This document shows positions 19,979 to 62,985 of a DNA stretch of 64,000 nucleotides, piece by piece. The position numbers and the translations under genes were made by a program. The DNA comes from Allobosea sp. 117 (GTDB lineage Bacteria; Pseudomonadota; Alphaproteobacteria; Rhizobiales; Xanthobacteraceae), in NCBI RefSeq assembly GCF_000702305.1, contig NZ_JNLC01000001.1, positions 62,001-126,000 of the forward strand, in the 5' to 3' direction. Numbering within the stretch: position 1 is the stretch's first letter; every line of letters starts with the position of its first letter. The notes under the pieces were generated by a model. That model was not told where the DNA came from. It saw only the letters and a list, made by a program, of their open reading frames with translations, and ran no database searches.

Positions 19979-20021
19979 ACGCGCCATCGAGAGCCTTCGC
20001 GAGAGCCGAGCCGTGACGCAC

Positions 20022-20114
20022 ATGTCCGCCCGCCGCACCGCGAACCCGGCCGCCAGGCGGATTCCGGGTGGCGCTCTCCTTTTGTCCGGTCTCCTTCTTC
20101 TTAGCCGCCCCTGA
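20022..20114 (+). CDS. Leucine-rich leader peptide upstream of leuA
   Basis: A 30-residue ORF ending LLLSGLLLLSRP, with seven leucines among residues 19-27. The codons are CTC, CTT, TTG then CTC, CTT, CTT, CTT: five of seven are CTT or TTG, which are rare in the surrounding genes (CTG and CTC dominate there). Stalling here during leucine shortage would change folding of the following hairpin. A GTG nine bases upstream (20013) is an alternative start; neither has a strong ribosome-binding site. It ends 130 bases before leuA. This is the classic layout of transcription attenuation and is too short to have been found by length-filtered gene calling. Confidence 0.78.
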   Translation: MSARRTANPAARRIPGGALLLSGLLLLSRP

Positions 20115-20149
20115 GGGCCGGCCGGGCTTGATGCCTGGGCGCTCAGGGG
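20108..20149 (+). promoter_or_regulatory. Attenuator hairpin of leuA
   Basis: CCCCTGAG at 20108-20115, which includes the leader stop codon, pairs perfectly with CTCAGGGG at 20142-20149. Inside, CCGGGC (20122-20127) pairs with GCCTGG (20133-20138, one G-U). A ribosome stalled on the leucine codons would cover or free the 5' arm. There is no T-run after the hairpin, so whether it acts by transcription termination or by sequestering the leuA ribosome-binding site is open. Confidence 0.6.
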
Positions 20150-20244
20150 ACGCCGCCGCTCCGACCTAGACAACAGCCAGACCTGATGTGCCGGACGAAG
20201 CCGAGATGCGGCTCCCGGTGCCCGCGACGAGAAGGAAGCCGTTC

Positions 20245-21816
20245 ATGTCCACCCGTTCCGATGCCGACCGCGTCGTCATCTTCGACACCACGCTGCGCGA
20301 CGGCGAACAGTGCCCCGGCGCCTCGATGACCTTCGAGGAGAAGCTCGATGTCGCCGAGCTGCTCGACGAGATGGGCGTCGACATCATCGAGGCGGGCTTC
20401 CCGATCGCCTCCAATGGCGACTTCGAATCCGTCGCCGAGATCGCCCGGCGTACCAAGCGGGCCGTGATCGCCGGCCTCGCCCGCGCCATCCCTGCCGACA
20501 TCGCCCGTGCCGGCGAGGCGGTGAAGCATGCGCAGCGCCCGCGCATCCACACCTTCGTCTCGACCTCGCCGATCCATCTCGAGCATCAGATGCGCAAGAC
20601 GCAGGAGCAGGTGATCGAGATCATCACCGCCACTGTCACGCAGGCCCGCAACCTCGTCGACAACGTCGAATGGTCGGCGATGGACGCGACGCGCACGCCG
20701 ATCGACTATCTGTCGCGCTGCGTGGAGACGGCGATCAAGGCCGGTGCCACCACGATCAACCTGCCCGACACCGTCGGCTACGCGACGCCCTCGGAATATG
20801 AGGTGATGTTCCGTCAGGTACGGGCCTATATCGCCGATCGCGTACCGAACGCCGATCAGATCGTCTTCTCAGCGCATTGCCACGACGATCTCGGGCTCGC
20901 GGTCGCCAACTCGCTGGCGGCGCTGGCTGGCGGCGCGCGGCAGATCGAGTGCACCATCAACGGCCTCGGCGAGCGCGCCGGCAACGCCGCGCTGGAAGAG
21001 GTGGTGATGGCGATCCGCACGCGCGGCGACGTGCTGCCCTACGCGACCGGCATCAATGCCGGCATGCTCACCCGCGCCTCCAAGATGGTGTCGGCGGTGA
21101 CGTCGTTCCCGGTGCAGTACAACAAGGCGATCGTCGGCCGGAACGCCTTCGCCCATGAGAGCGGCATCCACCAGGATGGCATGCTCAAGAACAACACCAC
21201 CTACGAGATCATGACGCCGGAGAGCGTCGGCGTCTCCAAGACCTCGCTGGTGATGGGCAAGCATTCCGGTCGCGCCGCCTTCCGCGACAAGCTGAAGGCG
21301 CTCGGCTACGAATTGGGCGAGAACGCGCTGAACGACGCCTTCGCGCGGTTCAAGGATTTGGCCGACCGCAAGAAGGTTGTCTATGACGAGGACATCGAGG
21401 CGCTGGTTGATCACGAGATCGCCGTCGCCCATGACCGGATGAAGCTGGTCTCGCTCACCGTCATCGCCGGCAGCCACGGCCCGCAGCGCGCCACCATGAA
21501 GATGGAGGTCGACGGCCACGTCATCACCGAGGAGGCGGCGGGCAACGGGCCGGTCGACGCCACCTTCAACTGCATCAAGGCGATCGTGCCGCATGCGGCG
21601 AAGCTGGCGCTCTACCAGGTGCACGCGGTGACCGAGGGCACGGACGCGCAGGCGGAGGTCTCGGTGCGGTTGGAGGAGGGCGACAAGGCGGTGACCGGCC
21701 GCGGCTCCGATCCCGACACGCTGGTCGCCTCGGCGCAAGCCTACATCATTGCGCTGAACAAGCTGCAGTCGAAGCGCCAGAGCGTGAACGCGCAGGCCCA
21801 GCCCGCGGCGGAGTGA
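20245..21816 (+). CDS. leuA: 2-isopropylmalate synthase
   Basis: A 523-residue enzyme catalysing the first committed step of leucine synthesis, acetyl-CoA + 2-oxoisovalerate to 2-isopropylmalate. The TIM barrel begins 'IFDTTLRDGEQCPGASM' and contains the metal motif 'SAHCHDDLGLAVANS' and 'NGLGERAGNAALEEV'. The C-terminal LeuA regulatory domain (about 395-505) gives leucine feedback inhibition. The ATG at 20245 follows AGAAGGAA; a GTG at 20188 would only add an unconserved extension. The upstream leader peptide adds transcript-level control. A strong terminator follows. Confidence 0.96.
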   Translation: MSTRSDADRVVIFDTTLRDGEQCPGASMTFEEKLDVAELLDEMGVDIIEAGFPIASNGDFESVAEIARRTKRAVIAGLARAIPADIARAGEAVKHAQRPRIHTFVSTSPIHLEHQMRKTQEQVIEIITATVTQARNLVDNVEWSAMDATRTPIDYLSRCVETAIKAGATTINLPDTVGYATPSEYEVMFRQVRAYIADRVPNADQIVFSAHCHDDLGLAVANSLAALAGGARQIECTINGLGERAGNAALEEVVMAIRTRGDVLPYATGINAGMLTRASKMVSAVTSFPVQYNKAIVGRNAFAHESGIHQDGMLKNNTTYEIMTPESVGVSKTSLVMGKHSGRAAFRDKLKALGYELGENALNDAFARFKDLADRKKVVYDEDIEALVDHEIAVAHDRMKLVSLTVIAGSHGPQRATMKMEVDGHVITEEAAGNGPVDATFNCIKAIVPHAAKLALYQVHAVTEGTDAQAEVSVRLEEGDKAVTGRGSDPDTLVASAQAYIIALNKLQSKRQSVNAQAQPAAE

Positions 21817-21876: not shown

Positions 21877-23721
21877 TCACTGTGGCGGGAATGGCTGTCG
21901 TCCGCGCGGGTCGGGCTGACCGCCGTCTCCCGGCTGCGGCTGATCGGGACGCTGCTGCTGGCGACGCTGGGGCGGCGGCTGATCCGGCGCGCCCTGGCGG
22001 CGTCGCTCCATCTCCTGACGCCGCTGCTCCTGCTGTTGGCCGCGTTGCTGCTCGATTTCCTGCCGGCGCTGATCCTGCTGCTGGCGCCGCTGCTCCTGTT
22101 GCTGATTGCGCTGCTGCTCGATCTCCCGCCGGCGCTGGTCCTGCCGCTGGCGCTGCTGCTCCTGCTGCTGGCCACGCTGGCGCTCGATCTCCTGCCGGCG
22201 CTGGTCCTGCTGCTGGCGCCGCTGCTCCTGTTGCTGATTGCGCTGCTGCTCGATCTCCTGCCGACGCTGGTCCTGCTGCTGGCGCTGTTGCTCCTGCTGC
22301 TGGCCACGCTGGCGCTCGATCTCCTGTCGGCGCTGATCCTGCTGCTGACGCCGCTGCTCCTGTTGCTGATTGCGCTGCTGCTCGATCTCCTGGCGGCGCA
22401 GGTCCTGCTGCTGGCGGCGCTGCTCAGTTCCGGCTCCGGCCGGCGGAGCGGGCGCCATGCCGGGCGCGGCCGGGCGCTGCATATCGGGCCGCTGTCCTGC
22501 CGGGCCACCCTGATCGGGACGGGGCTGATCGGGACGGCCCTGCACCTGACCGGCGCGCTGCCGACGCTCGTCGCGCACCCGCTCGAGCTGGTCGCGGCGC
22601 TGCTCGATCGCCTGCCGGCGCTCGCGCTCGAGATCGTCGTTGCGCGTGGCCGCCTGCTGGCGCAGCTCCCTGATGCGGTCTGCCCGCTCGCGCTCGAGGG
22701 TCTGGAGGTCGCGCCGATAAGCGTCGCGGTCGGAAAAGCGACGTTCGCGCAGCTCGCGCCGGCGGCTCTCGTCGAGCGAGGTGAGGAGTGCCGCGGAGGG
22801 CGCCGCCAGGCCGCGTCGATCGCCCGGCACGTCGTCGCGCACATACTGGCGCACCACGACACGACGATCCGGCTCGACCGTTCGGGCGACGCGGGGCGGT
22901 GGCGGCAGCCGGTCGCCGAGCGTGATGCGCGGCGCGAAGACGCCGATCTGTCCGGCATTGTCGTCGTAGAAGAGATCGTCCTGCCGGTCGACATAGACGA
23001 TGTCGCGCGTAACGATGCGGGTGCGCACGACATTGTCGAAGGCCGTCGGGGGGAGCGCGCGGTTGACGTAATAGCCGTTCTCCCAGACCGGGTCGTATTC
23101 GTCGGTCGCGGCGCGCAGATAGACACTGATCTCGGGGATCGGCGCGGCATAGGCGGCAAGGTCCGTCTCGCCGAAATACTGGTCCTGCACGAAGACCCAG
23201 CTCTCCGCGATCGGCGGCTCGTAATATTGCGCGCGTCCGATGGCGAAGCCGGCACGCTCCGGGGCGACCGGCGCCCATCCGGTTCGGCCGCCGCCACGCC
23301 GCCAGGTCACCCAGGCCGGCGACCAGGTGTCGCCCGGCACCCAGAACCAGCCATAGGCCGGATCATAACCCCAGCGTCCGTAATGATAGGTCGCCCAGCC
23401 GAAGGGTTCGTCGGATTCCCAGTACGAGCCATAAGCGTCGGTCCAGACCCAGCGGCCCTCCTGATAAGGCCGCCAGCCGGCGCCGACATCGTTCGGGATG
23501 AAGACGTAGCGATAGTCGGGATGCTCGACCCAGGTGCCGTAATCGGCGAGCTGATCATAGAAAACGCGCACGTCCATGGGAGCGCCCGCGGAGGGAGGTC
23601 CGGCCTGCGAAAGTCGAGCCGGGGGCAGTGGGGTCTGGCCGTTCGCCGGGACCCCGAGCGAGCTCGCGAGAAAGCTTGCCGCCAGGCCCGCGATCAGCAG
23701 CGGGTGGTGAAGTTTGATCAT
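21877..23721 (-). CDS. Exported DUF6600-type protein with Gln/Arg-rich repeat tail
   Basis: A 614-residue protein. Residues 1-28 form a signal peptide. Residues 45-165 are rich in Trp, Tyr and Gly ('YGTWVEHPDYRYVFIPN', 'GWRPYQEGRWVW', 'GWATYHYGRWGY', 'GWFWVPGDTWSPAWVTWRRG'), the pattern of the DUF6600 family. The middle part (about 320-400) is charged and helical. Residues 420-590 consist of 22-residue Gln/Arg/Glu repeats likely to form an elongated coiled coil. The ATG at 23721 ('MIKLHHPLLIAG') gives a normal signal peptide. An EcfG-type promoter lies 38-62 bases upstream. Role unknown; a secreted or envelope stress protein is inferred. Confidence 0.8.
   Translation of the reverse strand: MIKLHHPLLIAGLAASFLASSLGVPANGQTPLPPARLSQAGPPSAGAPMDVRVFYDQLADYGTWVEHPDYRYVFIPNDVGAGWRPYQEGRWVWTDAYGSYWESDEPFGWATYHYGRWGYDPAYGWFWVPGDTWSPAWVTWRRGGGRTGWAPVAPERAGFAIGRAQYYEPPIAESWVFVQDQYFGETDLAAYAAPIPEISVYLRAATDEYDPVWENGYYVNRALPPTAFDNVVRTRIVTRDIVYVDRQDDLFYDDNAGQIGVFAPRITLGDRLPPPPRVARTVEPDRRVVVRQYVRDDVPGDRRGLAAPSAALLTSLDESRRRELRERRFSDRDAYRRDLQTLERERADRIRELRQQAATRNDDLERERRQAIEQRRDQLERVRDERRQRAGQVQGRPDQPRPDQGGPAGQRPDMQRPAAPGMAPAPPAGAGTEQRRQQQDLRRQEIEQQRNQQQEQRRQQQDQRRQEIERQRGQQQEQQRQQQDQRRQEIEQQRNQQQEQRRQQQDQRRQEIERQRGQQQEQQRQRQDQRRREIEQQRNQQQEQRRQQQDQRRQEIEQQRGQQQEQRRQEMERRRQGAPDQPPPQRRQQQRPDQPQPGDGGQPDPRGRQPFPPQ
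22030..22430. repeat. In-frame tandem repeat array, 66-bp units in a 132-bp higher-order period
   Basis: GCTGATTGCG recurs at 22101, 22233 and 22365, and GCC(A/G)CG at 22039, 22171 and 22303, each exactly 132 bases apart. Each period holds two 66-base units that encode alternating 22-residue types beginning QQRN and RQRG. The array is near-identical at DNA level, which points to recent unequal crossing-over or slippage. Confidence 0.9.
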
Positions 23722-23758
23722 GTCCGAACCTCGTGACGCAGACGTAGAGTGCGCCTTC

Positions 23759-23783
23759 AACGTCGGACGTTGAGGATCGTTCC
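23759..23783 (-). promoter_or_regulatory. EcfG-type promoter of the Gln-rich protein gene
   Basis: Minus strand: GGAAC, 16 bases, CGTT, an exact match to the general stress response consensus. The -10 element lies 38 bases before the ATG at 23721, the same geometry as the promoter of the PRC-barrel gene. It overlaps a perfect 8-1-8 palindrome (TCAACGTC-G-GACGTTGA, 23757-23773). Confidence 0.7.
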
Positions 23784-62805: not shown

Positions 62806-62818
62806 CGCATCACGATCA

Positions 62819-62914
62819 CGTTGGGGTGCCCCAGAGACCATGTTGGTTCGACGGGGCTGAGAGGCGCGATGCCAACCCACGAACCTGATCCGGGTCATGC
62901 CGGCGGAGGGAACG
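62819..62914 (+). ncRNA. TPP riboswitch (THI element) controlling thiD
   Basis: The thiamine pyrophosphate aptamer is complete: GGGGTGCC at the 5' side, the conserved GGGCTGAGA, ACCTGATCCGGGTCATGCC with the second conserved helix, and the closing GGCGGAGGGAA. About 70 bases separate it from the thiD ATG; no terminator with a T-run is present, so control is probably by blocking the AGGGGAGAG ribosome-binding site. TPP binding should lower ThiD synthesis. Confidence 0.95.
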
Positions 62915-62985
62915 GATCGCGCGTGCCGATCAGGCGAGAGGCCCGGCACAAGCGCGGCGGTCTTCACCGGCAGGGGAGAGCGCCG

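Follow-up and report, generated by a model that had tools for sequence, protein, structure and literature searches.

A leucine-rich leader and a conserved stop-codon hairpin upstream of leuA in Alphaproteobacteria: a candidate leucine-responsive translational attenuator

Introduction

In the stretch of DNA analysed here (the window, 64,000 nt), leuA is preceded by a short open reading frame (ORF) rich in leucine codons and by a hairpin that contains the stop codon of this ORF. This raises the question whether leucine controls leuA at this locus and by which mechanism it would do so. A leader peptide rich in Leu codons precedes leuA also in the enteric leu operon. The initial annotation had recognized the architecture of leucine attenuation and, since a T-run was missing, had proposed Rho-type or translational control. 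No T-run follows the stem in the window, and a translational mode agrees with the likely partner of the leader, the Shine-Dalgarno sequence of leuA. Of the proposed architecture, the leader and the stem at the stop codon are retained, whereas the mechanism has to be revised, because the likely partner is the Shine-Dalgarno zone of leuA and no terminator is found. We propose that a leucine-responsive translational attenuator is probably located in front of leuA.

The leuA leader in the window

The features of the leader region and the downstream gene are the following.

20013..20114, + strand: predicted leader ORF with GTG start, 33 codons and TGA, containing 7 Leu codons
20022, + strand: alternative leader start ATG, giving 30 codons
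20076..20102, + strand: the Leu codons CTC CTT TTG TCC GGT CTC CTT CTT CTT, the putative sensor
20245..21816, + strand: leuA, 2-isopropylmalate synthase, 523 aa (NF002087 / TIGR00973 leuA_bact)

The genome has a single match for leuA, and a linker of 95 nt before leuA is untranslated. As described before, the short ORF is present and carries seven Leu residues in nine codons; its C-terminal end reads A-L-L-L-S-G-L-L-L-L-S-R-P-stop. Among the 532 ORFs of 10-60 codons on both strands of the window, the leuA leader is the single one with at least seven Leu in nine codons. The Leu codons had been listed as mostly CTT and TTG, which has to be corrected to four CTT, two CTC and one TTG. Their proposed scarcity in neighbouring genes holds for leuA, the gene to which our count refers: its 33 Leu codons include no CTT and three TTG. 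The 30-codon frame postulated earlier does exist with the ATG at 20022, but in an alignment with three sequences of Ancylobacter, to which its genome is close, this start occurs in the window alone. The start common to all four sequences is the GTG at 20013, resulting in a leader of 33 codons.

Two further features of the window were noted. A TPP riboswitch (Rfam RF00059, 57.6 bits) is located at 62812-62928. Downstream of leuA, an ORF on the minus strand (21877-23760) contains long repeats rich in Q, R and E; on the other strand, much of the same stretch is likewise an open, leucine-rich frame.

A conserved hairpin around the leader stop codon

The hairpin at the end of the leader is composed as follows.

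20108..20149, + strand: hairpin P1-P3, from RNAalifold and covariation
20108-20115 and 20142-20149, + strand: P1, a stem of 8 bp (CCCCTGAG pairs with CTCAGGGG) containing the leader stop codon
20117-20119/20138-20140, + strand: P2
20120-20123, + strand: bulge of 4 nt between P2 and P3
20124-20127/20133-20136, + strand: P3

A perfect stem of 8 bp beginning at the stop codon had been reported. The stem is real, but it begins 4 nt 5' of the stop codon (20112-20114), which thus lies 4 nt inside P1 from its 5' end. The folding energy of the window leader is ordinary (z 0.04) and uninformative. Moreover, the minimum-energy fold contains an alternative pairing in place of P1, which has a probability of 0.33 and can be forced at a cost of 1.4 kcal/mol. 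Therefore, comparison between genomes must decide, and the support for P1 in the window is comparative.

The first comparison set consisted of the window and 80 leuA loci of other genomes. A pattern search recovered P1 in 77 of these 81 loci, the rows left out being a false pattern match (L081) and three loci with no P1 (L041, L059 and L078). An RNAalifold analysis of 75 aligned sequences gave a consensus of 15 pairs, comprising P1, a 1x1 mismatch, P2, the 4-nt bulge and P3, with double changes in 11 of the 15 pairs. In an alignment of 95 sequences, 93.2% of the P1 and P2 cells are paired, and their covariation of 0.297 exceeds that of all slid versions (0.122 or less) and was reached in none of 500 shuffles. 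The pairs of P2 are weaker, with 16 to 25 of the 95 sequences unpaired. The predicted ensembles of 66 lineages contain P1 at a mean probability of 0.85, exceeding 0.5 in 58 of them. The conserved alphaproteobacterial P1 reads CCCCUGA/UCAGGGG with the stop codon inside, and the bulge and P3 differ across the class both in length and in sequence.

A larger collection comprised 163 leader/leuA pairs, from which L131 and L138, whose start is more than 400 nt distant, and L154, which has a LeuA of another type, had been dropped beforehand. At least four Leu codons are found among the last 12 codons of the leader in 133 of these pairs, and CTT accounts for 415 of the 804 Leu codons in this part of the leaders versus 171 of 2967 in leuA itself, of which up to 900 nt from the start were counted. 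The stop codon is inside P1 in 157 of the 163 loci. In the remaining six the leader frame continues, and the stem thus appears to be of greater importance than the stop codon. Further, the proline codon CCC in P1 is replaced by CTC in 5 of the 163 loci, and in the CTC rows of our alignment A4 the opposite arm was changed too (three U-A pairs, one U-G pair). Thus, the RNA stem is kept rather than proline, which suggests that P1 is maintained as RNA.

Two variants of the leader speak against the mechanism proposed below. At locus L188 (around 406-478), P1 is retained upstream of leuA and the in-frame Leu run is lost. In 46 of the 163 loci Arg precedes the last Leu codon (45 times as CGA), giving Leu-Arg-Leu beside P1, often with few Leu codons; examples are L104, L106, L107, L121, L123, L125, L130, L141, L143 and L146. 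In L123, L143, L146 and L165, a CACCUAAGUC-like strand matching the leader sits in the linker, away from the Shine-Dalgarno sequence. In several genera a second hairpin before the Shine-Dalgarno sequence was seen by eye.

The leucine codons match the Shine-Dalgarno sequence of their own leuA

In the window, the Leu codons can pair with the region immediately upstream of leuA (P0).

20087..20099, + strand: 5' strand of P0, putative anti-Shine-Dalgarno strand (20087-20090 pairs with 20238-20241, and 20092-20099 with 20229-20236)
20229..20241, + strand: 3' strand of P0, including the presumed leuA Shine-Dalgarno sequence GAAGGA (20231-20236)

P0 is present in the minimum-energy fold of the window with or without P1 forced, and the Shine-Dalgarno zone is predicted to pair with the Leu run at a probability of 0.89. 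Since pyrimidine-rich codons fit any purine-rich site, the informative comparison is that of own and swapped pairs of genomes. Some genomes occur twice across our two collections (e.g. L077/L094, L079/L097, L073/L112 and L076/L126); the sets of 66 and 36 lineages used here collapse duplicate genomes and contain one sequence per LeuA cluster (at 80% and 75% identity, respectively). The leuA starts were set by a script favouring Shine-Dalgarno-like upstream sequences, which could increase pairing as such but affects own and swapped pairs equally.

The Leu codons (15 nt) match positions -20 to -3 of their own leuA better than those of swapped ones, with z -6.6 (n=66) and -5.7 (n=36) and none of 20000 permutations in either set. 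Two controls gave no such signal: the 15 nt upstream of the Leu codons against the same zone (z -1.4 and -0.4 for n=66 and n=36), and leuA codons 2-7 as partner of the Leu codons (z +0.3 and -0.1). When all 20 nt of the run were compared with the 60 nt at the 3' end of the linker, z was -9.8 (n=66) and -7.8 (n=36), again with 0 of 20000; the control stretch reached -2.1 and -3.0, so part of this broader signal is due to composition. When own linkers were dinucleotide-shuffled, the mean z of the run was -1.19 (sem 0.18) with values below -2 in 18 of 66 lineages, as compared to -0.02 and 1 of 66 for the control. Complementarity to the linker 5' of the Shine-Dalgarno sequence was likewise found for the CUUA at the end of the run (z -4.4, n=66; z -2.4, n=36). 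Paired changes were recognized by eye in Methylobacterium (CUUACCC/GGGUAA) and in methanotrophs (CCUGCUG/CAGCAGG). Because own pairs exceed swapped pairs, the sensor codons seem to act also as the anti-Shine-Dalgarno strand, as judged from sequence comparison.

This match is not universal among the 66 lineages. In 36 of them, 4 nt or more of positions -14 to -5 lie within the best predicted duplex, which is not so in the other 30, and the Shine-Dalgarno zone pairs with the Leu run at a probability above 0.3 in 42 and at 0.3 or below in 24. In several lineages, a segment of the leader finds its partner at another place in the linker.

The effect of a ribosome on the leader was computed for the same 66 lineages. 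A ribosome of 30 nt placed on the Leu codons lowers the mean energy for opening the Shine-Dalgarno zone from 6.40 to 4.26 kcal/mol, versus 5.96 kcal/mol for a ribosome placed upstream (Wilcoxon p 0.003), and the drop exceeds 1 kcal in 35 and 16 of the 66 lineages, respectively. In the window the opening energy decreases from 7.5 to 4.6 with the ribosome on the Leu codons, and the upstream control gives 9.3. A ribosome at the stop codon results in a mean of 4.69, near the value for the Leu codons; in the window it leaves the Shine-Dalgarno sequence closed (9.4). Since on average the zone is opened nearly as much from the stop codon, the mechanism proposed below would need fast release of the terminating ribosome.

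Proposed mechanism and alternative explanations

We propose that the leader ORF is translated and that its Leu codons would serve as sensor and as anti-Shine-Dalgarno strand at once. When leucyl-tRNA is plentiful, the ribosome would clear the Leu codons and terminate at the stop codon inside P1. Then P1 would refold, and the freed CU-rich Leu codons would pair with the leuA Shine-Dalgarno sequence, so that P0 blocks initiation. During leucine shortage the ribosome would be stalled on the Leu codons, P0 could not form, the Shine-Dalgarno sequence would stay open and LeuA would be made. The role of P1 would be to bring the strands of P0 together and to tie ribosome release to refolding. From this computational case we infer leader translation, stalling, the direction of control, the role of P1 and regulation by leucine, and we thus agree with the initial annotation that leucine-dependent control is the likely purpose of the leader.

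The alternative that fares best is Rho-dependent transcription attenuation, in which the leader ribosome or P0 would govern the access of Rho to the 95-nt linker and thereby transcription of leuA; as a variant, polarity following blocked leuA translation could occur. It would fit the leader ORF architecture, the GC-rich genomes and the finding that in 151 of 163 loci P1 is not followed by a T-run. However, control by Rho has no need of a Shine-Dalgarno match that is specific for each genome, and we consider this explanation rather unlikely.

Less likely still is that the bulged P1-P3 structure is a binding site for a protein or a small molecule and that the Leu run serves as a base stem only. 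The bulged hairpin of the 75-sequence alignment would be in line with this, and for the similar LEU element of Actinobacteria a protein has been argued for (PMC1262725). Against it, the bulge and P3 are the parts that vary over the class, whereas 153 of 163 loci retain the last CUU-A of the Leu run, and in the set of 75 sequences the variation of the two preceding codons is found mainly at their third positions.

Classical attenuation of the enteric style, with P1 as pause hairpin, its 3' arm as antiterminator and an intrinsic terminator downstream, would account for the Leu-run leader peptide and for the stop codon in the hairpin, and T-rich stretches do follow P1 in 12 of the 163 loci. But a T-run after P1 is lacking in the other 151, and in the window region we found no terminator-like site. 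An antiterminator would be expected to form between the 3' arm of P1 and the linker, but this combination gave z +1.7; for the P1 interior and the linker, as in a pseudoknot, z was -0.3 in the 66 lineages. Thus, a classical antiterminator and a pseudoknot are both unsupported in Alphaproteobacteria, and this mode of control is very improbable. Between the 3' arm of P1 and the leader run the signal was weak (z -1.8), and other pairings of the P1 arms with linker or leader showed no clear signal. Constitutive secondary structure without leucine sensing is hardly credible, considering that in-frame, CUU-rich Leu codons are tied to leuA, including two LeuA types.

Distribution in Alphaproteobacteria

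With the covariance model R1, one copy of the element was found in the genome of the window, at leuA with E 5.8e-15; when the antisense match of this copy is disregarded, the next-best one has E 2.0. R1 matches are present in 98 of 387 alphaproteobacterial genomes. We examined 89 of the 97 matches in genomes other than its own, and leuA is downstream in all 89. The model R2 matches 133 of the 387 genomes at E <=0.01. Ten weak or LeuA-less R2 matches were inspected, and four of them (L187, L192, L193 and L194), which are low-scoring and located inside other genes, were taken as chance and rejected. A sample drawn across the phylum contains 92 genomes out of 397 with a match at E <=0.001, and all 92 are labelled as belonging to the same class or nearer; the listing of this sample gives no count of genomes from other classes.

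The R2 element was matched in 121 of the 198 genomes carrying a LeuA of the window type (TIGR00973), and it is directly upstream of leuA in 110 of the 112 genomes in which both places are listed. When 20 of the 77 genomes without a match were inspected, six showed the element by eye, three of which reach E 1.4e-4 or better in a search without filters. Thus, 121 of 198 is a lower bound. The other 14 do not show the element, and many genomes with a TIGR00973-type LeuA do lack it.

The initial annotation had named as evidence against it that relatives keep leuA and lose the Leu codons or the stem. The outcome is mostly in favour of attenuation: the leucine leader and its link to leuA recur across Alphaproteobacteria, and Leu run and stem are kept in relatives, as seen from the frequencies of P1 and of Leu-rich leader ends and from the covariation of P1 given above. 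Retention is not general, as the 77 unmatched genomes and the 14 inspected ones lacking the element indicate.

The element also precedes a second type of LeuA, TIGR00970, in five loci: L185, L186, L190, L195 (family f13), and L189. The latter is the same place as L154, and its LeuA has 27% identity to that of the window. E-values of chance R2 matches (5.6e-4 to 0.01) overlap some of the TIGR00970-linked ones (1.0e-7 to 5.4e-4), and the latter were accepted because leuA follows. Judged by these sequence matches, the element is widespread in Alphaproteobacteria before two distinct LeuA types, and it appears to go with leucine synthesis and not with one gene. The leader of Sphingomonas parapaucimobilis (L218) looks like the TIGR00970-linked element.

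Relation to known leucine leaders

The enteric leu operon attenuator is represented in Rfam by Leu_leader (RF00512). A search of Rfam 15 with the window copy gave no family at the gathering score or at E<=1, and with 16 further loci only tRNAs were found at the gathering score. The alphaproteobacterial element differs from the enteric attenuator in that we found for it no intrinsic terminator, antiterminator or Rfam match. In translational attenuation of the ermC type, stalling of a leader ribosome frees a Shine-Dalgarno sequence. The proposed leuA mechanism would differ from this type in its signal, which would be amino-acid shortage at sense codons, and in that the sensor codons themselves would be the sequestering strand.

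The closest relative is the LEU element upstream of leuA in Actinobacteria described by Seliverstov, Putzer, Gelfand and Lyubetsky in 2005 (PMC1262725). In its predicted base stem, the run of Leu codons pairs with the Shine-Dalgarno sequence of leuA, a pseudoknot or alternative internal hairpin and a binding protein were suggested, and the mode of regulation was left open. The alphaproteobacterial element shares with it the position upstream of leuA, the leader ORF with a Leu run, the internal hairpin and a base stem of the LEU type, which is supported by our comparisons and absent in some lineages. It differs by the conserved P1 with the stop codon, by its occurrence mostly before TIGR00973 LeuA, and by the lack of a pseudoknot signal in the 66 lineages. 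In view of the latter, we regard it as a LEU-like variant in its working and not as a full member.

Leaders of leuA in the actinobacteria Microbacterium and Nonomuraea both contain CUUCUUAGCUGCC followed by a hairpin. R2 gives the two leaders 20.6 and 20.5 bits at this place, and both have the CUUA core which R2 rewards; the base stem is in the minimum-energy fold of the Microbacterium leader and not in that of Nonomuraea. ORFs with Leu runs were also seen before leuA in Sinorhizobium meliloti (L219, reading ...LLLLGLIRGCRVR) and, by eye, in Shinella (L222, ...LLLLLLRLIGDRWA) and Cupriavidus metallidurans (L221, ...SSLLLLSLPIGCRA), all retrieved with a TIGR00970-type query. They show hairpin-like repeats by eye and are LEU-like leaders which R2 does not reach.

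Statements on leuA of Streptomyces coelicolor count against the proposed attenuator: PMC1262725 states in one passage that leuA leader mutations had some effect, inconsistent with classical attenuation, and in another that mutations of the Leu codons do not influence regulation. For the actinobacterium Corynebacterium glutamicum, a putative leuA leader peptide with four consecutive Leu codons was described, and the passage concerned speaks of attenuation and uncharged tRNA and gives no structure (PMC4046766). A leader of ilvB in Alphaproteobacteria is mentioned in a passage of PMC1273637. None of the papers among the full-text matches listed deals with a leuA leader of Alphaproteobacteria; two papers cited in the literature, Vitreschak 2004 and Lopatovskaya 2010, could describe it.

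Significance

Based on these observations, we lean towards the view that the element is an old and widespread leucine sensor in which the leader codons are the anti-Shine-Dalgarno strand of the controlled gene, and which would share its logic and part of its sequence with Actinobacteria and serve two LeuA types. If this is true, leucine control could be attributed to many genomes (98 of 387 by R1; 121 of 198 by R2) at a place where Rfam 15 is blank for the copies searched, and this view would offer a possible reading of the actinobacterial LEU element. It would also provide a testable alternative to terminator-based attenuation for GC-rich bacteria with terminator-less leaders, and could be useful for engineering the flux through LeuA. 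Finally, the choice among the codons CUU, CUC and CUG in such leaders would be tuned by tRNA shortage and by pairing with the ribosome-binding site together.
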